Source: Scleromatobacter humisilvae (GTDB taxonomy: Bacteria > Pseudomonadota > Gammaproteobacteria > Burkholderiales > Burkholderiaceae_C). Taken from it: DNA of 64,000 bases. Below, piece after piece: positions 25,296 to 37,139 of the stretch. The stretch is from assembly GCF_023231945.1 (NCBI RefSeq), contig NZ_JAJLJH010000001.1, forward strand, positions 1,798,001 to 1,862,000, written 5' to 3'. Below the pieces are notes generated by a model that worked only from the letters and a program-made list of their open reading frames with translations, was not told the DNA's origin and made no database searches. The translations under genes were made by a program, and so were the position numbers. Position 1 is the stretch's first letter, and every line of letters begins with the position of its first letter.

Positions 25296-25371
25296 TGGCA
25301 GGGGCAGAGGGAATCGAACCCCCAACCTTCGGTTTTGGAGACCGACGCTCTGCCAATTGAGCTATACCCCT
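25296..25371 (-). tRNA. tRNA-Trp (CCA anticodon)
   Basis: The 76-nt cloverleaf starts AGGGGTATAGCTCAATTGGC and has anticodon loop CTCCAAA, T-loop GGTTCGATTC and an encoded 3' CCA. The position between tuf and secE is the standard one. Confidence 0.97.
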
Positions 25372-27108: not shown

Positions 27109-27843
27109 TCAGCCGTCAAGCGACCACCAGTCGACCTGCCCGGCCGTGGCCGCGAAGTGGCTGCCGTCGGCCATGAATTCGCGCTTGAAGTCCTGCGACG
27201 GGTGACGCGCGCGCAGCACGCGCGCCGAAGAGCCCGCCGGACAGGCGGCGTCGAAGAACGCCTGGGCCGGCTTGCCCCACAGCAGGAAGGTCGGCGGCTC
27301 GGCGCGGACAGCAAGCACACCGACGATATTGGATGTGAGCGCTTGCCATCCGCAATTCATGTGAGCGCCTGCGGTCCCCACTTCGACCGTCAGCACCGTG
27401 TTGAGCATCAGCACGCCCTGGCGCGCCCAGCTGTCGAGCACCCAGCGCTGCGGCGGCTGCCAGCCCGGGCGGTCGGCCTTCATGATCTCGAAGATGCGTC
27501 GCAGCGACACCGGCTTGCCGTGCCCAGCCGAGAACGCCAGGCCGGTGGCATGCCCGGGGCGCGGATATGGATCCTGCCCGAAGACGACGACCTTGACGTC
27601 CTCGGGCGCCAGCAGGCGCAGTGCGCGGAATGGATCGGGCGGCGCGATCTCGCGGTCGCCCGAGACCGCCTTCACCGCAGCGACGACCGCCTGCTCGGCC
27701 GCGGGCGTCCAGCCCGTCAGCAGCGCGCGCCAGGCGGCCGGCAGATGCGCGAACGCCGCCGGCAGGTCGTCGGCGCGATGCACCTGCGGCACGCCGGCCT
27801 GCTCGGCCGCATCGCCGAACGGCAGGTCGGATTGTCCGCTCAC
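27109..27843 (-). CDS. ung: Uracil-DNA glycosylase (family 1, divergent motifs)
   Basis: This 244-aa protein removes uracil from DNA. The catalytic motif reads [20 protein letters not shown] (D91; most Ung have GQDPYHGPGQAHG), the uracil-recognition Asn is in [10 protein letters not shown] (N148), and the second motif is HPSQDF (H214) in place of the usual HPSPLS. So the catalytic Asp, Asn and His are kept while the minor-groove loop differs. The start codon is GTG (27841-27843), which overlaps the trpC stop as GTGA, implying translational coupling in the trpG-ltaE-trpD-trpC-ung operon. Confidence 0.88.
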
Positions 27844-28640
27844 GGCTTGGGCGCGCCGAACAGCGCCTCGAGCGCGACGCCGGGATCGGCCGCGCGCATG
27901 AAGGCCTCGCCGACCAGGAAGGCATGCACGCCCGCCGAGCGCATCGTCGTGACGTCGGGCCCGGCGAGGATGCCGGACTCGGTGACCAGCAGGCGATCGG
28001 CCGGCACCGCGGCCATCAGGCCCAGCGTCGTCTGCAGCGTGACCTCGAAGGTGCGCAGGTTGCGGTTGTTGATGCCGACGAGCGGCGTCTTCAGGCGCAA
28101 CGCGCGCTCGAGCTCGGCGCCGTCGTGCACCTCCACCAGCACGTCCATGCCTTGCTCGAACGCGGCGTGCTCGAGCTCGGCCATCTGGCTGTCGGCCAGG
28201 CAGGCGGCGATCAGCAGGATGCAGTCGGCGCCCATCGCGCGCGCCTCGACGACCTGGTACGGGTCGATGATGAAGTCCTTGCGGATCACCGGCAGCGCGC
28301 AGGCGGCGCGCGCGGCCCTCAGGTAGTCCTCATGGCCCTGGAAGAACTGGACGTCGGTCAGCACCGACAGGCACGCCGCGCCGTGCTTCGCGTAGCTGGC
28401 GGCGATCGCGGCTGGATCGAACTGCTCGCGCAGCACGCCCTTGCTCGGGCTGGCCTTCTTGATCTCGGCGATGACCGCGGCGTCGCCGCGCGCCACCTTC
28501 GCGCGCATCGCGGCGGCGAAACCGCGCGGCGCGGACTGGCCGCGCGCGAGCTCGTGCAGGTCGGCGGCGCTGCGTTTCGGACGGGCGGCGGCGAGCTCCT
28601 CGCGCTTGACCTCGACGATGCGTTGCAGGATGTCAGACAT
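27840..28640 (-). CDS. trpC: Indole-3-glycerol-phosphate synthase
   Basis: This 266-aa (beta-alpha)8 enzyme closes the indole ring from CdRP in tryptophan synthesis. It has [20 protein letters not shown] (catalytic Lys), [15 protein letters not shown] and [21 protein letters not shown] follows near the C-terminus. It is monofunctional, not fused to TrpF. Its first 8 bases overlap the end of trpD and its stop overlaps the ung start. Confidence 0.97.
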
Positions 28641-29670
28641 TCGGCTTCAACTTCTGCGTGACGGCCACGAACTGCGCCAGCTTGGCCTGCGCCGCGCCGG
28701 ACGCCACGACCTCGCGGGCGCGCTTGACGCCGTCGGTCACCGAGCCGGCCACGCCGGCGCAATACAGCGCGGCGCCGGCGTTGAGCAGCACGACGTCGCG
28801 GATGGGCCCGTCCTCGTTGGACAACGCGCGCCGGATGCAGGCCACCGACTCCTGCTGGTTGGCCACGCGCAGCACGCGCGAGTCGTACACCGGCAGCCCG
28901 AAATCGCTCGGATGCACGACGTACTCGCGCACCTCGCCGTTGTTCAGTTCGCCGACGAGCGTCTCGCCCGACAGCGACACTTCGTCCATGCCGTTCTGCC
29001 CGTACACGACCATCACGTGCTCGGAGCCCAGGCGCTGCAGCACGCGCACCTGGATGCCCACGAGATCGGGATGGAACACGCCCATCAGCTGGTTGGGCGC
29101 CCCGGCCGGATTCGTCAGCGGACCCAGGATGTTGAACAGCGTGCGCACGCCCAGCTCCTTGCGGACGGGCGCGGCGAACTTCATCGACGCGTGGTGGTTG
29201 GGCGCGAACATGAAGCCGATGCCGGTCTCCTCCAGGCAGGTGGCGACGAGTTCGGGCGACAGGCTGATGTGCGCGCCGAGCGCCTCCATCACGTCCGCGC
29301 TGCCCGAGGTCGACGACACGCTGCGCCCGCCGTGCTTGGCCACGCGCGCGCCGGCGGCCGCGGCGACGAACACCGAGGCGGTCGAGATGTTGAACGTGTG
29401 AGAACTGTCGCCGCCGGTTCCGACGATGTCGACCAGGTTCGTGCGATCGACGACCGGCACGGGCACCGCGAACTCGCGCATCACGGTGGCCGCGGCGGTG
29501 ATCTCGCCGATGGTCTCCTTCTTCACGCGCAGCCCGATCGCGATGGCCGCGATCATCACCGGCGACATCTCGCCGCTCATGATGCGGCGCATCAGCGCCA
29601 GCATCTCGTCGTGGAAGATCTCGCGGTGTTCGATGACGCGGGTCAGCGCCTCGGTGTCTGAAATCGGCAT
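28633..29670 (-). CDS. trpD: Anthranilate phosphoribosyltransferase
   Basis: This 345-aa enzyme joins anthranilate to PRPP. It has the [14 protein letters not shown] phosphoribosyl loop, [20 protein letters not shown], and [13 protein letters not shown] lining the anthranilate tunnel. It overlaps trpC by 8 bases and lies 9 bp downstream of ltaE, so it is translated from the trpG transcript. Confidence 0.97.
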
Positions 29671-29679
29671 GCGAATCCT

Positions 29680-30759
29680 TCAGTGGGAGGCGCCGACGGC
29701 GCGGCGGATCTCGGCGATCGCGCGGTCGACGCCGGCGGCATCGACATCGAGATGGGTGACGAAGCGCAGTTTGTACAGGCCCGTGCAGAGCACGCCGCGC
29801 GATCGCAGCTGGTCGACCAGCGAGTCGTGCTCGCCGCCCCACTTCGCCGCCGTGCGCGCGTGCACGAGCGCGGGCGCGAGATCGACGAACAGGATGTTGC
29901 TGGCGGGCGGCGTGAAGGTCAGTCCGTCGATGCCGGCGAGGCCGTCGGCCAGGCGGCGCGCGTTGGCGTGGTCGTCGCGCAGGCGCACGACGTGGTGGTC
30001 GAGCGCATGCGAGGCGGCGGCCGCCAGCAGCCCGGCCTGGCGCATGCCGCCGCCGGCCATCTTGCGCACGCGTTTCGCGCGGGCGATCAGCGCCTTCGAG
30101 CCGACCAGCGCCGAACCCACCGGCGCGCCCAGGCCCTTGCTGAAGCACACCGAGACGCTGTCGAACAGGTCCGCGATGGCGCGCGCCTCGGCATACGGAT
30201 CGCTGCCGTTGGCCTCGGCCTGGACGACCGCGGCGTTGAACACGCGCGCGCCGTCGAGGTGCGTCGCCAGGCCGCGCCTGCGCGCCAGCGCGGTCGCGTC
30301 GCGCAGGTAGGCCATGGCCAGCGGCTGGCCGCCGAAGGTGTTCTCCAGGCACAGCAGACGCGTGATCGCGAAGTGCGCGTCGTCGGGCTTGATCGCGGCC
30401 TCGATGTCGGCCAGCGCCAGCGAGCCATCGGCCTGGTGCGCAATCGGCTGCGGCTGGATCGAGCCCAGCACCGCGGCGCCGCCGCCTTCCCAGCGATAGG
30501 TGTGGGCCATCTGGCCGACCAGGTACTCGTCGCCGCGCTGGCAGTGGCTCATCAGCGCCGCGAGGTTGCTCTGCGTGCCGGTGGGCATGAACAGCGCCGC
30601 CTCCTTGCCCAGCAGCGCGGCGATGCGTTCCTGCAGCGCGTTGACGCTGGGGTCGTCGCCGAACACGTCGTCGCCCAGCGGGGCGTTGAACATGGCGTCG
30701 CGCATCGCGGCGGTGGGCCGCGTGACGGTATCGCTGCGGAGGTCGACGATCGTGCTCAT
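29680..30759 (-). CDS. ltaE: Low-specificity L-threonine aldolase
   Basis: This 359-aa PLP enzyme cleaves L-threonine or allo-threonine to glycine and acetaldehyde. The PLP lysine is K208 in VCFSKGLGAPVGS, D169 in HLDGAR pairs with the pyridine nitrogen, and H86 in MAHTYRWEGGG stacks on the ring. ATG 30759 overlaps the trpG stop (ATGA), so the gene is truly embedded in the trp operon between trpG and trpD. No link to tryptophan synthesis is known to me; the open frame upstream is a shadow of trpG. Confidence 0.95.
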   Translation of the reverse strand: MSTIVDLRSDTVTRPTAAMRDAMFNAPLGDDVFGDDPSVNALQERIAALLGKEAALFMPTGTQSNLAALMSHCQRGDEYLVGQMAHTYRWEGGGAAVLGSIQPQPIAHQADGSLALADIEAAIKPDDAHFAITRLLCLENTFGGQPLAMAYLRDATALARRRGLATHLDGARVFNAAVVQAEANGSDPYAEARAIADLFDSVSVCFSKGLGAPVGSALVGSKALIARAKRVRKMAGGGMRQAGLLAAAASHALDHHVVRLRDDHANARRLADGLAGIDGLTFTPPASNILFVDLAPALVHARTAAKWGGEHDSLVDQLRSRGVLCTGLYKLRFVTHLDVDAAGVDRAIAEIRRAVGASH

Positions 30760-31346
30760 TGGACTTGGCTCAGGTTGAGGAAGTTGCGCAGCATCGCGTG
30801 CCCGTGCTCGGACAGGATGGACTCCGGATGGAACTGCACGCCCTCCAGCGGCGTGCGCGTGCCGGCCAGCTCGCGATGGCGCACGCCCATGATCTCGCCG
30901 TCCTCCGACCGCGACGTGACGACCAGCTCGGCCGGGCAGGTTTCCGGCTCGATCGCCAGCGAGTGGTAGCGGATCACGCTGAACTCGCGCGGCAGGCCGG
31001 CGTAGACGCCTTCGCCGTCGGTCGTCAAAGTGCTCGCCTTGCCGTGCATCTGGCGCTGCGCGCGCACGATGCGGCCGCCCAGCGCGGCGCCGATGCTCTG
31101 GTGGCCCAGGCACACGCCCAGGATCGGCAGCTTGCCGAGGTAGGCCTGGATCGCGGGCACGCACACGCCGGCCTCGGCGGGCGAGCACGGCCCGGGCGAC
31201 AGCACCAGGTGATCGGGCTTCATCGCGCCGATCTCCTCCACGCTGATCTCGTCGTTGCGCACGACGCGCACCTCCTGCCCGAGCTCGCCGAAATACTGCA
31301 CGAGGTTGAACGTGAAGGAATCGTAGTTGTCGATCATCAGAAGCAT
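30756..31346 (-). CDS. trpG: Anthranilate synthase glutamine amidotransferase component
   Basis: This 196-aa class I amidotransferase feeds ammonia to TrpE. The nucleophile C79 is in LGVCLGHQSIG and the His/Glu pair in GVQFHPESIL. It starts MLLMIDNYDSFTFNLVQYFG. In many bacteria the same subunit also serves PabB. It is the first gene of trpG-ltaE-trpD-trpC-ung and is preceded by a leader region with its own Trp-containing peptide (31488-31535). Confidence 0.97.
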   Translation of the reverse strand: MLLMIDNYDSFTFNLVQYFGELGQEVRVVRNDEISVEEIGAMKPDHLVLSPGPCSPAEAGVCVPAIQAYLGKLPILGVCLGHQSIGAALGGRIVRAQRQMHGKASTLTTDGEGVYAGLPREFSVIRYHSLAIEPETCPAELVVTSRSEDGEIMGVRHRELAGTRTPLEGVQFHPESILSEHGHAMLRNFLNLSQVQ

Positions 31347-31487
31347 GAGCGTTCCTGGGTCTGGCTTTGACTGACTCGGGTGTCCGCAGGGCGCGGAGCG
31401 GTCAATCGGGGTCTCTCGTCAGCCGCGCTGGTCCGCGGCTCGGTCAGACAGGACGCGCGCAGGGCGGCGCGACCCGGGCCGGGATCT
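31347..31487 (-). promoter_or_regulatory. Candidate attenuator region between trp leader peptide and trpG
   Basis: The 141 bases between the leader peptide stop and trpG hold AGCCGCG/CGCGGCT with a 6-nt loop (31421-31440) and TCCGC/GCGGA (31383-31397). The 5' arm of the first hairpin plus its loop (CGCGGACC) can alternatively pair upstream with GGTCGCG (about 31467-31473), giving mutually exclusive structures as in attenuators. No U-run follows, so a classical intrinsic terminator is not evident; Rho or translational control are alternatives. Confidence 0.5.
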
Positions 31488-31535
31488 TCACCAACGCCAA
31501 TGGCCGGTGTGGAAGATGGTCGAGAGCTGCTTCAT
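31488..31535 (-). CDS. Candidate trp leader peptide ahead of trpG
   Basis: This 15-codon open frame reads MKQLSTIFHTGHWRW and ends in TGA directly after two Trp codons in a W-R-W arrangement. Its ATG lies only 9 bases after a TAGAAT -10 box, so the transcript would start 2-4 bases before the ATG with no Shine-Dalgarno sequence. The position (142 bp upstream of trpG), the Trp codons next to the stop, and the parallel with a second such frame before trpE all point to ribosome-mediated sensing of charged tRNA-Trp. It is too short to appear in ordinary gene calling. Confidence 0.75.
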   Translation of the reverse strand: MKQLSTIFHTGHWRW

Positions 31536-31544
31536 GTCGAGACC

Positions 31545-31572
31545 ATTCTAAGCGCGCTGCACGGCCCTTGCC
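31545..31572 (-). promoter_or_regulatory. Promoter of the trpG leader
   Basis: On the minus strand TAGAAT (31545-31550) is the -10 box. GGCAAGGGC (31564-31572) covers the -35 position and occurs identically at the same place before the trpE leader (36004-36012). The -35 does not resemble TTGACA, so an activator or a non-standard contact is possible. Confidence 0.65.
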
Positions 31573-31669
31573 TTCTCGGGGCTGCAAGCGTGTCTCTTCG
31601 CACGAAAGGGCCCGTGGATTGATGTCAGCCCTGATCGCGCGTCCGTCGTGCGATGGCTAGGATGGAGCA

Positions 31670-32866
31670 ATGCCCAAGCACCAAGACTCCTCAGCCGACA
31701 AGCCGGCGGCAGGCGCCCCGTTCGCCCAGCTGGCCGAGGCCTTGCGCGCGCGCCCCCTGCCGCGCAAGCCGCGCCGTCACGGCGAGCCCGCCGACGCCGA
31801 GGCCGCCGCGCAGCAGCCGCCGACCGTCGAGGAGCAGCTGGATCGTGCCGAGATCTGCTCGCGCTCGGGCCGCCTCGACGACGCCATCGCGATCTGCAAC
31901 GCGCTGCGGCCCTCGCTCGTCGCCGGCAACGATCCGCAAAGCCTCGGCTGGTGCGATTTCGTGCTGGCGCTGAGCCACCTGAACGCCGGCCGCGCCAAGG
32001 AAGCAGTGATCGCGGGCTACCGCGCCATCGGCAAGCTCCCGCCCGGCACGCGCCTCATGCGCAGCCTCACGATGCTGGCCTCGGCCGTCGCGCGCACCGG
32101 CGACGCCACCGGCGCGCTGGAACTGCTGGAGCGCGCCAAGCAGCAGCTGCCGCTGGTGGAGAGCGCGCGCGACCGCTGCCTGTTCTGGGCCAACTGCGGC
32201 ACCACGTACCACGGGCTGGGCGACGCGCACGAGGCGATCCGGCACTCGATGATGGCCGAGAGCATGCTGGGCGAATTCGACGACCCGTACGTGCATTCGG
32301 CCATGCGGATGAACCTGCTGGTGCAGCGCGTGGGCCTGGCGGTGGCCGGCTGCAACGGCGTCGAGACGCCGGAGCTCACCGAGCTGTTCGGGGCGTTCGC
32401 GGCGCATGCGGAACGCCTGGTCGCCGCGGGCCAGCACTATCCGGTGGCCAAGGGCAGCGAGGACATCGCCGACGCCTACATCGCGATCGGCCAGAACGAA
32501 CAGGCGCGCGAGACGCTGCTGCTGGGCATCAAGTCCGCCGACGCCGCCAAGGCGAGCCCGGATCGCGGCGCGCTGGAGCTTCGCCTGGGCCGCCTCGAAC
32601 GCATGGCCGGCCAGTACCGGCGCGCGTCGGCGCACATCGGCCTGGCGCTGGAACTGCTGGCCCAGGGCGAGCTGCTCAAGGAACTCGCCGAGGCCCACCT
32701 CGAGAACAGCCTGCTCAACGAGGAGCGCCAGCACTGGCGCGCGGCGCTGGACAGCTACCGCGAATCCGCGCAGATCCGCGAGCGCCTGCTGATCGCGCAG
32801 TCGGACGCGCGCGCCCACGCGCTCACGGTGCGGCTCGAGCTGGTGCGCGGCAGCACCGCCGGCTGA
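31670..32866 (+). CDS. TPR-repeat protein of unknown function
   Basis: This 398-aa protein without signal peptide or membrane segment has a disordered Ala/Pro-rich first 55 residues followed by helical repeats of TPR type (for example EICSRSGRLDDAIAICNALR and ARTGDATGALELLERAKQQL). The layout is like the sensor half of the TPR-containing histidine kinase at 37936, but no catalytic domain follows. It interrupts the trp locus between trpE and trpG on the opposite strand and ends 3 bp from the convergent lipoprotein gene. Confidence 0.75.
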   Translation: MPKHQDSSADKPAAGAPFAQLAEALRARPLPRKPRRHGEPADAEAAAQQPPTVEEQLDRAEICSRSGRLDDAIAICNALRPSLVAGNDPQSLGWCDFVLALSHLNAGRAKEAVIAGYRAIGKLPPGTRLMRSLTMLASAVARTGDATGALELLERAKQQLPLVESARDRCLFWANCGTTYHGLGDAHEAIRHSMMAESMLGEFDDPYVHSAMRMNLLVQRVGLAVAGCNGVETPELTELFGAFAAHAERLVAAGQHYPVAKGSEDIADAYIAIGQNEQARETLLLGIKSADAAKASPDRGALELRLGRLERMAGQYRRASAHIGLALELLAQGELLKELAEAHLENSLLNEERQHWRAALDSYRESAQIRERLLIAQSDARAHALTVRLELVRGSTAG

Positions 32867-32869
32867 CGC

Positions 32870-34102
32870 TCACTGCAAGGTGGGCGTCGTCGGCAGCGTC
32901 ACCTGCCGGTACGCCTTCAGCTTGTCGAGCTTGGCGGCGTAGAGGTCGTGGTCGGTGCGCTTGACGGAGTTCTCCAGCGCGAGGGCGAGCTCGCTGCGCG
33001 CCTCGTCGACGCGGCCCAGGCCGAAGTCGGCCACCGCCAGCCCGTAGTGGAACTCGTGGTAGTCCGGCTCGCGGTCGATCTCGCGCTTGAACATCGCGCG
33101 GGCCGTCGCGTAGTCGTGCGCCTTCAGCGCCGCCTCGCCGAGGTTGTAGAAGTAGAACGGCGGGTACGGCTCGATCGCCGCCAGGCGCTTGTCCACTGCC
33201 TCGGCCTCGGCCACGCGGCCGAGCCGGCGCAGCGACTGGGCGTCGTTGGCCAGCATGCGCGGGTTGTCGGGCACCAGCGCCAGGACAGCGTGCAGCACGG
33301 TCTCCGCACGAGCGACGTCGCCGTGGCGCATGTAGACCACGGCCAGCGTGTTGTAGGCGCTGAGGAACTTCGGGTCGAGCCGCACGGCCTCGCGGGCGCG
33401 CCAGTAGGCGTTGTCGATCTGGCCGGCCACCAGCGCCTCGGCGGCGCGGTTGTTCATGTACATCGCCAGGACGGTGTTCTCGTGGATCGGGCGCTCGTGC
33501 AGGCCGGCCGTGTCTTCCTGCGGCAGGAAGTCAACGGTGAAGGTGCGGTAGCGATCGACCCGGGCGACCGTCTCGGCGAACGGTCGATCGAGCTGCAGGT
33601 TCACGTGGCCGCTCATGAAATACATGTCGCCGCTGCGCGTCCACATTTCCTCGATCGTGGCCTGCTGGAACGTGACGTTCAGCCCCATCGCCTTGGCGAA
33701 GGCGCCCGTCATGATCACCAGCGACAGGCAGTTGCCCTGGCGCGCCTCGAACGCCTCGGCCGCGTTGCGCGTCATCGAGGCTTCGTATTCGAGCTGCAGC
33801 TTGCTGCGGTTGTAGAGCGCGTCGGTGAGCGCGCCGGCCAGGCCTTCGGTGCGCGCCAGCGGCAGGATCTTGTCGTCGATGTAGGCCAGCATCGCGGGCG
33901 TGAGCCTGAACACCTCGGCCGGATCGATCGGCTCGGTGGACGGCGCGAAGCTGGCGTCGTCGAAGAAGCTCGGCGCCTGGGCGACGAGGTTCTGGCTGTC
34001 CGGGCTGGCGCACGCGCCCAGCACGAGCGGCAGGACCAGGCAGGCGAGCCGCAGCAGGCGCGCCGGGCCTGCGGGAAGAGCTGACGAGCGACGCTGGAAC
34101 AT
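32870..34102 (-). CDS. Lipoprotein with transglutaminase-like fold and TPR repeats
   Basis: This 410-aa protein has a lipoprotein signal ending in LVLGAC (C31). A papain-like transglutaminase-type triad is visible as C125 (GNCLSL), H166 (MSGHVNLQL) and D191 (FTVDFLP). From about residue 220 there are TPR units such as AYWRAREAVRLDPKFLSAYN. It is probably anchored in the outer or inner membrane facing the periplasm; the substrate is unknown. The ATG has an excellent AGGAGGTCATC site. It lies 93 bp downstream of trpE. Confidence 0.8.
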   Translation of the reverse strand: MFQRRSSALPAGPARLLRLACLVLPLVLGACASPDSQNLVAQAPSFFDDASFAPSTEPIDPAEVFRLTPAMLAYIDDKILPLARTEGLAGALTDALYNRSKLQLEYEASMTRNAAEAFEARQGNCLSLVIMTGAFAKAMGLNVTFQQATIEEMWTRSGDMYFMSGHVNLQLDRPFAETVARVDRYRTFTVDFLPQEDTAGLHERPIHENTVLAMYMNNRAAEALVAGQIDNAYWRAREAVRLDPKFLSAYNTLAVVYMRHGDVARAETVLHAVLALVPDNPRMLANDAQSLRRLGRVAEAEAVDKRLAAIEPYPPFYFYNLGEAALKAHDYATARAMFKREIDREPDYHEFHYGLAVADFGLGRVDEARSELALALENSVKRTDHDLYAAKLDKLKAYRQVTLPTTPTLQ

Positions 34103-34195
34103 GATGACCTCCTCGTGCGCGCCATCCGCGAAAAACGGGCGCGGAACAATCGGACTATGCGCGTTTCGCGGACGTTGGCAAGTCTCGAAAGGCCT

Positions 34196-35671
<1,476 letters not shown>

Positions 35672-35809
35672 GGTGGGGAAGACTCCGTTGGCCGGATGCG
35701 CCGCGACGGCGTTGCTGGAACAGGTCGCGGGCGCCGCGGCGAAGATTCTCGACGCCGCTGCGCGGGCGCAGGCGTGACGTCGTCCAAGGTGCACGCGCGC
35801 CGGCAAGGT

Positions 35810-35845
35810 GCCACCGCGGTGCGGCGCCGGCACCGCGACGGTGCC
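35810..35845 (-). promoter_or_regulatory. Candidate trpE attenuator stem-loops
   Basis: On the minus strand four short segments follow each other: GGCACCG (35839-35845), CGGTGCC (35829-35835), GCACCG (35817-35822) and CGGTGGC (35810-35816). Segments 1:2 form a perfect 7-bp hairpin with a 3-nt loop; 2:3 can form a 6-bp alternative; 3:4 is also partly complementary. This is the 1:2 / 2:3 / 3:4 logic of trp attenuators, 35 bases after the leader stop. There is no U-run after segment 4, so the terminating step is unclear. Confidence 0.5.
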
Positions 35846-35880
35846 CGGAGGGCGGGTCGGCGGCTAGGCGCGTGCGTTCA

Positions 35881-35976
35881 TCACGAACGGCGTCGCCAGA
35901 CCCAGGCTCCCTGGTCGTGCGACCGCACCGCGCATGCTTTCACGGCGGTGCAGGAGAGGAGGAAGCCTTCGGACAT
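35881..35976 (-). CDS. Candidate trp leader peptide ahead of trpE
   Basis: This 31-codon frame begins MSEGFLLSC and ends GAWVWRRRS, with Trp codons at positions 25 and 27 in a W-V-W arrangement close to the TGA stop. The ATG lies 7 bases after a TAAACT -10 box, so transcription should start at or next to the ATG and the message would be leaderless; there is no Shine-Dalgarno sequence. It mirrors the W-R-W peptide ahead of trpG. Longer upstream extension in the same frame would cross the promoter. Confidence 0.7.
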   Translation of the reverse strand: MSEGFLLSCTAVKACAVRSHDQGAWVWRRRS

Positions 35977-35983
35977 GCGAGCC

Positions 35984-36012
35984 AGTTTAGCCGAAGGAAT
36001 CGAGCCCTTGCC
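35984..36012 (-). promoter_or_regulatory. Promoter of the trpE leader
   Basis: TAAACT (35984-35989) is the -10 box on the minus strand. GGCAAGGGC (36004-36012) lies over the -35 position and is identical to the box before the trpG leader (spacing 14 versus 13 bases to the -10). The upstream bases up to 36311 also carry the divergent promoter of the TonB-like gene, which I could not define. Confidence 0.6.
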
Positions 36013-36311
36013 AGCGCGCAGCCCACGCCGTCCGGACGCCCGGGCTTCCGGCTTGGCGAAGACGCAGCGAACGCAGCGCGTGCTTCCCTCGTGCCGAAAT
36101 CGACCGAGGGTTATCCCGAGGGCCCCGCTCGACCATGGAAGTTGCATAGTGACGTAATGCGCATTCGGCGGCGTTTGGCAATCCCTTTTCCACGGCATAG
36201 GCCTTGCATGCCGTTACTTGTCGCTAGACTTCGCTGCCTCGCTGTGATTTCCGTCGTTGGGACGCAGCCGGGATTTCCAGAACCACGACGTGTCACCTGA
36301 GCACGACCGCC

Positions 36312-37094
36312 ATGACTGAGTTGAGATTCATCGCGCGCTGCGTCCTGATGCTGGCCTGCGCCGCCGCCAGCACGGCGACGATGGCCCAGGTGATCGCGCC
36401 GTCCGCCGCCGCATCCGCCGCCGCCGACAAGGCCCAGAAGGAAACCGACCGGACCATGTACTGGATCCGCGTCCTCGCGACGACGCCGGCGCCCAAGCCC
36501 GCCGCCGCGCCGCGCCCCGTCGTCGCCCCGGCCGCACCGCAGACCAAGGTCGCCGCGGCACCCGCCCCCGCGCCCGAGCGCGTGAAGGTCGCCGCCGCGG
36601 CGCCGTCCTCGACCTCGGCCGACCTCGCCAACGCGGCCCCGGCTTCGGTCGTCGTCCCCGCGCCGTCGGCCGCCACCGCGCCGTCGCTGGCCGCGGCCAC
36701 CGGCGCCACGGGCAACCCCAGCGCGATGAGCACGGGCGGCGTCGACGCGGGCGTGTCCTCGGCCGGCGTCGCCGGATCGCTGGTCGCCCCGAGCGCATCG
36801 GCGCCGCAGATCGACGTGCCCGTCGCCGACGAAGAGCCGGATCCGGGCCTGATCATGACCAAGTCGGCCGACCCGCAGTTCCCGATCAACACGATGCGCC
36901 GCCTGCGCAAGGGCGAGGTCGAAGTGAAGTTCGAAGTCGGCCCGGACGGCGTCGTCGACGTGGTCACCGTGATGAAGTCCACCAGCCCGAGCCTGAACGC
37001 CGCGGCCGTCGACGCCGTGCGCCAGTGGCGCTTCAAGGCGACGCCCAAGGGACACACGGCGCTGGTCGACCTGGCGTTCAACCTCGACTCCTGA
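36312..37094 (+). CDS. TonB-family C-terminal domain protein with signal peptide
   Basis: This 260-aa protein has a cleavable-looking signal (MTELRFIARCVLMLACAAAS, then TATMAQ). A long Ala/Pro/Val-rich linker follows (about 50-170), then a TonB C-terminal fold: ADPQFPINTMRRLRKGEVEV, VDVVTVMKSTSPSLNAAAVD and AVRQWRFKATPKG. TonB passes energy from ExbBD to outer-membrane receptors, but here the N-terminus looks cleavable and no exbBD is nearby, so an independent periplasmic role is possible. It lies between gph and trpE on the opposite strand and ends at a good terminator. Confidence 0.82.
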   Translation: MTELRFIARCVLMLACAAASTATMAQVIAPSAAASAAADKAQKETDRTMYWIRVLATTPAPKPAAAPRPVVAPAAPQTKVAAAPAPAPERVKVAAAAPSSTSADLANAAPASVVVPAPSAATAPSLAAATGATGNPSAMSTGGVDAGVSSAGVAGSLVAPSASAPQIDVPVADEEPDPGLIMTKSADPQFPINTMRRLRKGEVEVKFEVGPDGVVDVVTVMKSTSPSLNAAAVDAVRQWRFKATPKGHTALVDLAFNLDS

Positions 37095-37113: not shown

Positions 37114-37139
37114 AAGGCGGCCCGCGGGCCGCCTTTTTT
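37114..37139 (+). terminator. Intrinsic terminator of the TonB-like gene
   Basis: A perfect palindrome GGCGGCCCGCGGGCCGCC (37116-37133) flanked by AA/TT is followed by TTTTTTC, 20 bp after the stop codon. Because gph ends just beyond it on the other strand, it may act in both directions. Confidence 0.92.

Follow-up and report, generated by a model that had tools for sequence, protein, structure and literature searches.

A putative second tryptophan leader peptide, of leaderless type, ahead of a detached trpG operon in Scleromatobacter humisilvae

In enterobacteria, the leader of the trp operon has its own ribosome-binding site and is followed by a U-tract terminator, two features that set it apart from the leader described here. 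What the E. coli trpL attenuator and our locus have in common is a short ORF preceding trp genes, with its Trp codons towards the end. A further parallel is found in Sinorhizobium meliloti, where passages of PMC7298713 report that the trpL (rnTrpL) transcript starts at the ATG. As in that system, the locus analyzed here has a short ORF with Trp codons, and the spacing of its promoter box predicts a start at the ATG. The S. meliloti system belongs to an alphaproteobacterium and has one leader, with consecutive Trp codons and a terminator, ahead of a fused trpE(G), whereas the stretch that we analyzed, a 64,000-nucleotide window of S. humisilvae, has two leaders, a W-x-W motif and no U-tract terminator that our scans could find.

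A first-pass annotation of the window had proposed a 15-codon frame ending in W-R-W-stop, with a -10 box TAGAAT 9 bases ahead of its ATG. Both are present. The ORF, MKQLSTIFHTGHWRW-stop, lies on the minus strand at 31488..31535, with the ATG at 31535, the TGA ending at 31488 and Trp at codons 13 and 15; the TAGAAT box occupies 31545..31550 on the same strand, 9 nt 5' of the ATG, and scanning found no -35/-10 pair at this promoter. The annotation had also asked whether the frame is conserved in relatives, and we compared four genomes of the genus, three with a trpG match and the fourth contributing leader DNA on a contig without one. The ATG, both Trp codons and the stop are kept in frame in all four; the four-way alignments show no change in the -10 box, ATG, TGG CGY TGG or TGA, and among the 48 coding columns 5 vary, three synonymously and two altering I7 and H9. 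Conservation is also strong just 3' of the stop codon, where the four genomes read AGATC[C/A]CGGCCCGGGTCGCGCCGC. On this sequence evidence, the ORF is a Trp leader peptide, probably of the leaderless type. A box spaced this closely to the ATG predicts leaderless mRNAs, and the promoter spacing, which recurs in other genera, fits a transcript that would begin only a few nt from the leader ATG. The named TrpG loci nearest to the TrpG of the window come from Burkholderiaceae/Rubrivivax metagenome-assembled genomes.

A chance-only reading of the trpG leader was rejected on the basis of box and ATG counts and of background rates. The window has 1511 ATGs when both strands are counted; a TANANT box lies 4 to 10 nt upstream of two, namely the trpG leader ATG at 31535 and a trpE leader ATG at 35976, and the looser TANNNT is found at this distance for eight. 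Four ATG starts in the window, again on both strands and including both leaders, open ORFs of 8 to 35 codons with WW or WxW near the end. Background rates were taken from 1.129 million strand-nt of the window and the fetched loci, outside the 600 nt before trpE or trpG: this sample holds 215 short W..W ORFs (0.067 per 350 nt), 13 promoter-adjacent ORFs with any two Trp codons (0.004 per 350 nt) and two promoter-adjacent W..W ORFs (0.0006 per 350 nt).

Domain matches agree with the downstream gene order given by the first-pass annotation, trpG-ltaE-trpD-trpC-ung, all on the minus strand. The anthranilate synthase amidotransferase gene trpG (30756..31346, GATase domain) is followed by an ltaE-like threonine aldolase gene (29680..30720, Beta_elim_lyase, start approximate), trpD (28633..29670, Glycos_transf_3), trpC (27840..28640, IGPS) and the uracil-DNA glycosylase gene ung (27109..27843, UDG), which ends the apparent operon. 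The distance from the leader to trpG, given earlier as 142 bp, comes to 141 nt when recounted from the leader stop to the trpG ATG at 31346 (31347..31487, minus strand). The aldolase gene thus sits inside the trp operon. A tRNA-Trp (CCA) gene lies on the same strand at 25296-25371, about 1.7 kb past the end of ung, so the trp operon has, as a near neighbor, the gene for the tRNA to which Trp leaders would respond.

The trpE gene is detached from this operon. Its listed frame spans 34196..35833 (minus strand), with the true start inside that frame and taken as about 209 nt 3' of the trpE leader stop, and two TPR-like genes lie between trpE and trpG. One is at 32870-34102 (minus strand); the other (31670-32866, plus strand), with a TPR score just under the cut-off, is divergent from the trpG leader. 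The gap between trpE and trpG is 2852 nt in the window, 2890 in locus L113 and 2822 in L114. For trpF, which lies elsewhere in the window genome (L221, G000:C19) directly after another coding frame, truA-like by eye, no Trp leader was seen ahead of the gene; not all trp genes of this genome therefore seem to carry one. A single TrpG/PabA-type match was found in the window genome at E≤1e-30, trpG itself, and a second chorismate-binding gene (G000:C1:644969-645739, L223) is pabB-like and, judged by eye, continues into a pabC-like part. The tryptophan and folate pathways may thus share TrpG, in which case a separate control of TrpG would be meaningful.

The second Trp leader of the window, which the first-pass annotation had overlooked, lies ahead of trpE. 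It is the ORF MSEGFLLSCTAVKACAVRSHDQGAWVWRRRS-stop (35881..35976, minus strand), with a related ORF in L113 and a -10 box TAAACT (35984..35989, minus strand) 7 nt 5' of its ATG, and it is the local form of a leader that in relatives carries the motif RGAWPWR. Promoter-adjacent W..W ORFs precede trpE in 86 of the 91 genomes with a readable trpE start; the other five are L164, L166, L181, L194 and L211, and L194 has an RGAWPWR ORF without the box. A trpE leader, mostly of the RGAWPWR form, is near-universal in the genomes examined. In a larger and partly overlapping set of 122 AWxWR leaders, which mixes loci that can overlap (L044 and L216, for example, lie on contigs of equal length) and comprises 95 distinct 34-mers, TANNNT stands 4 to 10 nt before an in-frame start in 108, and the 14 without the box include six from Burkholderia, Paraburkholderia or Caballeronia and four Oxalobacteraceae loci. 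In a smaller set of 84 leaders, an SD-like string precedes one ATG, and TANANT is found 3 to 12 nt ahead of 68, of which 58 also show the TG that marks an extended -10. Promoter-like boxes adjoining leader ATGs are thus a general feature of the relatives of the window. Most Burkholderia-group leaders (L081, L087, L090, L092 and also L080 and L093) have no box adjoining the ATG.

The trpG leader of the window resembles the RGAWPWR leader of its relatives in pathway, W-x-W motif and promoter-like box at the ATG, and the latter differs in lying before trpE instead of trpG and in encoding a longer peptide. The string TGGCGCAAGCC occurs in 17 of the 122 trpE leaders and also in the GWRWRKP trpG leaders of L034, L134, L138, L153 and L163. 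Synonymous positions of CGG GGA GCC TGG CCC TGG CG, encoding R-G-A-W-P-W-R, are strongly conserved across the 122 trpE leaders, a constraint additional to that on the peptide, and one for which pairing to the RNA further downstream did not account: the mean longest complement of the conserved ACCGGGGAGCC was 5.54 compared to 5.53 after shuffling, and since complements were no commoner than in shuffles, the simple pairing model was dropped.

Leader families of this kind could not be recognized in the databases searched. Rfam gave no match for window positions 30700-36500, where a relaxed threshold of E≤5 yielded two hits, both far below the gathering score; at the gathering score, seven fetched loci returned tRNAs and no leader match, and NCBIfam had no match for five leader peptides of at least 20 amino acids. 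A literature text search for the string GAWPWR had no match in the papers searched, and no description of Burkholderiales trp leaders was found among the titles and abstracts listed, which did not extend to the principal reviews and comparative work of 2004, 2008 and 2010. Passages of PMC2965389, PMC4833913, PMC1173090, PMC12218461 and PMC8632094 mention no such leader. The trpE leader may well have been described before.

We compared the occurrence of trpG leaders with the state of the operon across 101 genomes, comprising the window, 59 other genomes of a 200-genome family draw and G200 (L113-L172) and 40 more of the draw (L181-L220). A trpG match was obtained in 190 draw genomes, and the sample takes in 100 of these, for the most part closer relatives. 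Genomes were classed as joined (gap to trpE of up to 100 nt), near (101 to 1300 nt) or detached, giving 63 joined, 18 near, 19 detached and one unknown, with the detached class including genomes in which trpE was simply not found in the fetched 5 to 8 kb. A trpG leader was defined as an ORF of 8 to 45 codons with at least two Trp codons, no more than 350 nt before trpG, with TANNNT or NATAAT 4 to 10 nt before its ATG or GTG. By this rule, whose NATAAT form and two-Trp requirement were chosen after the loci had been seen, a leader precedes trpG in 12 of 19 detached genomes and in none of the 63 joined or 18 near genomes, against a background of 0.004 per 350 nt. The 12 include an HWRW type (the window, L113 and L114), an RWWR type (L115, L168 and L171), a WRWRKP type (L134, L138, L153 and L163) and two further promoter-adjacent two-Trp ORFs, in L144 and L181; that of L144 has a GTG start and begins MKHLSTRFWGFRRWR..., resembling the beginning of the window peptide. 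When the box is limited to TANNNT, promoter-adjacent W..W ORFs remain in 6 of the 19 (the window, L113, L114, L115, L168 and L171). As for the other detached genomes, L116 has an SWRWRKP ORF without the box, L126 and L161 have promoter-adjacent ORFs with one Trp codon, and no leader was found before trpG in L118, L154, L159 and L187 (4 of 19). If the box rule is dropped, W..W ORFs precede trpG in 12 of the 19 detached genomes, where background predicts about 1.3, and in 8 of the 63 joined ones, with none in the 18 near genomes. The association is partly forced, since in joined genomes the room ahead of trpG is taken up by the coding sequence of trpE. The tie between trpG leaders and split-operon genomes was not noticed in the first-pass annotation.

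A quick tree of TrpG and TrpE only, in which 8 of the 101 rows are less than half complete and with which transfer is compatible, requires at fewest 13 changes for detachment and 11 for the leader, one- and two-Trp leaders counted. Of eight independent pairs on starred branches, an average of 7.1 have the leader going with detachment, and the reverse is never seen (sign test, median p of 0.016). On this tree, the operon split and the trpG leader appear to have changed repeatedly, and a second leader looks like a recurring means of keeping a separated operon half under tryptophan control.

The first-pass annotation had further described alternative hairpins downstream of the leader. Hairpins can indeed be drawn in the 141 nt before trpG, but folding is no stronger than in 200 mononucleotide shuffles (z of -0.28 for the whole and -0.36 after the stop). 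In the consensus fold of the four genus genomes, one drawable hairpin straddles the Trp codons and the stop, and 2 of 58 pairs are compensatory, one of these also broken in one genome, with others broken as well. Masked-ribosome folds of the window leader RNA gave no clear two-state switch, and none of the predicted folds clearly occludes the trpG SD (AGGAA). A simple consensus scan found no hairpin with a U-tract after the window leader, and this absence is weak evidence because a scan of the same kind finds 11 terminator-like sites in 20 kb of the window compared to 13.0 in shuffles. One strong-looking case in that 20-kb scan lies at 37114-37135. Nor was a U-tract terminator found after any of 13 trpG leaders (the window, L034, L036, L077, L113, L114, L115, L134, L138, L153, L163, L168 and L171). 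Terminator-like sites follow 14 of the 122 trpE leaders, compared to 3 to 12 in ten shuffles, and 12 of 84 in the smaller set. Around the Trp codons of the trpE leader, a hairpin forms fully in 83 of the 95 distinct sequences, and the pairing of the four pairs tested is 0.945, whereas 1000 shuffles of the columns average 0.922 and reach at most 0.942; because the pairing is mostly via invariant bases, this gives weak support for the hairpin. The first-pass reading of the ORF as a leaderless trp attenuator peptide is therefore supported for the Trp-codon leader ORF in a Burkholderiales-type genome and leaves the attenuator a candidate: with no U-tract terminator found and no significant fold, we do not file the trpG leader as a classical attenuator.

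We consider it likely that a 15-codon Trp leader, probably read from a leaderless or almost leaderless mRNA, gives the detached trpG-ltaE-trpD-trpC-ung operon its own tryptophan sensor, beside a trpE leader of the usual type. Under a shortage of charged Trp-tRNA, the ribosome would stall at W13 or W15, as is established for trp leaders, and the stalled ribosome would alter events in the 141 nt before trpG so that expression rises, coupling Trp-tRNA supply to trpG-ltaE-trpDC expression. Candidates for the output are Rho, a kind of termination that needs no U-tract, and an effect on the translation of trpG. Our claim is kept to a Trp leader peptide that, from its sequence, would work like the sensor of an attenuator.

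A classical transcription attenuator like those of enterobacteria and S. meliloti, working through an intrinsic terminator and alternative hairpins, is possible but doubtful here. The Trp codons do stand at the end of a short ORF, with drawable hairpins, one of them over the Trp codons and the stop, and five Burkholderia-group trpE leaders (L062, L081, L087, L090 and L092) are followed, 11 to 15 nt past the stop, by a hairpin and then 5 or 6 T; set against this are the missing U-tract terminator after the window leader and the 13 trpG leaders tested, the nonsignificant folding and the count of terminator-like sites after trpE leaders relative to shuffles. Control at the level of translation, by which a stalled or terminating ribosome would change access to the trpG start or the stability of the RNA while transcription stays constant, seems rather unlikely to us. 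The scan that found no terminator after the window leader and the good conservation of the RNA directly past the leader stop speak for it, but the trpG SD shows no clear sequestration and 141 nt is long for reinitiation. Finally, the region could simply be a leaderless promoter, with two Trp codons that are accidental or have some other cause. One such cause would be a trans-acting peptide, an activity that passages of PMC7298713 describe for the S. meliloti leader peptide. We hold this reading to be very improbable, given how far above background Trp pairs recur: ahead of detached trpG genes in different genera, with differing peptide bodies, and ahead of trpE in almost every genome of the sample.

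Beyond the window, we tentatively entertain, at somewhat below even chances, a wider proposal: that Burkholderiales would control tryptophan synthesis via leaderless Trp leaders with no need of a U-tract terminator, and that a new leader would usually be made at the trpG promoter after trpG leaves the trpE operon, several times independently, keeping both enzyme subunits under the same signal. Passages of PMC5343134 report that gammaproteobacteria conserve TrpR and that other classes lack it, and leader peptides may thus be the main Trp control in Burkholderiales. The missing U-tract terminator turns the output step into a testable question. Genomes with two leaders offer material for asking whether the supplies of TrpE and TrpG stay in step, and with leaders apparently remade after operon splits, they form a natural series for the origin of attenuator-like sensors.
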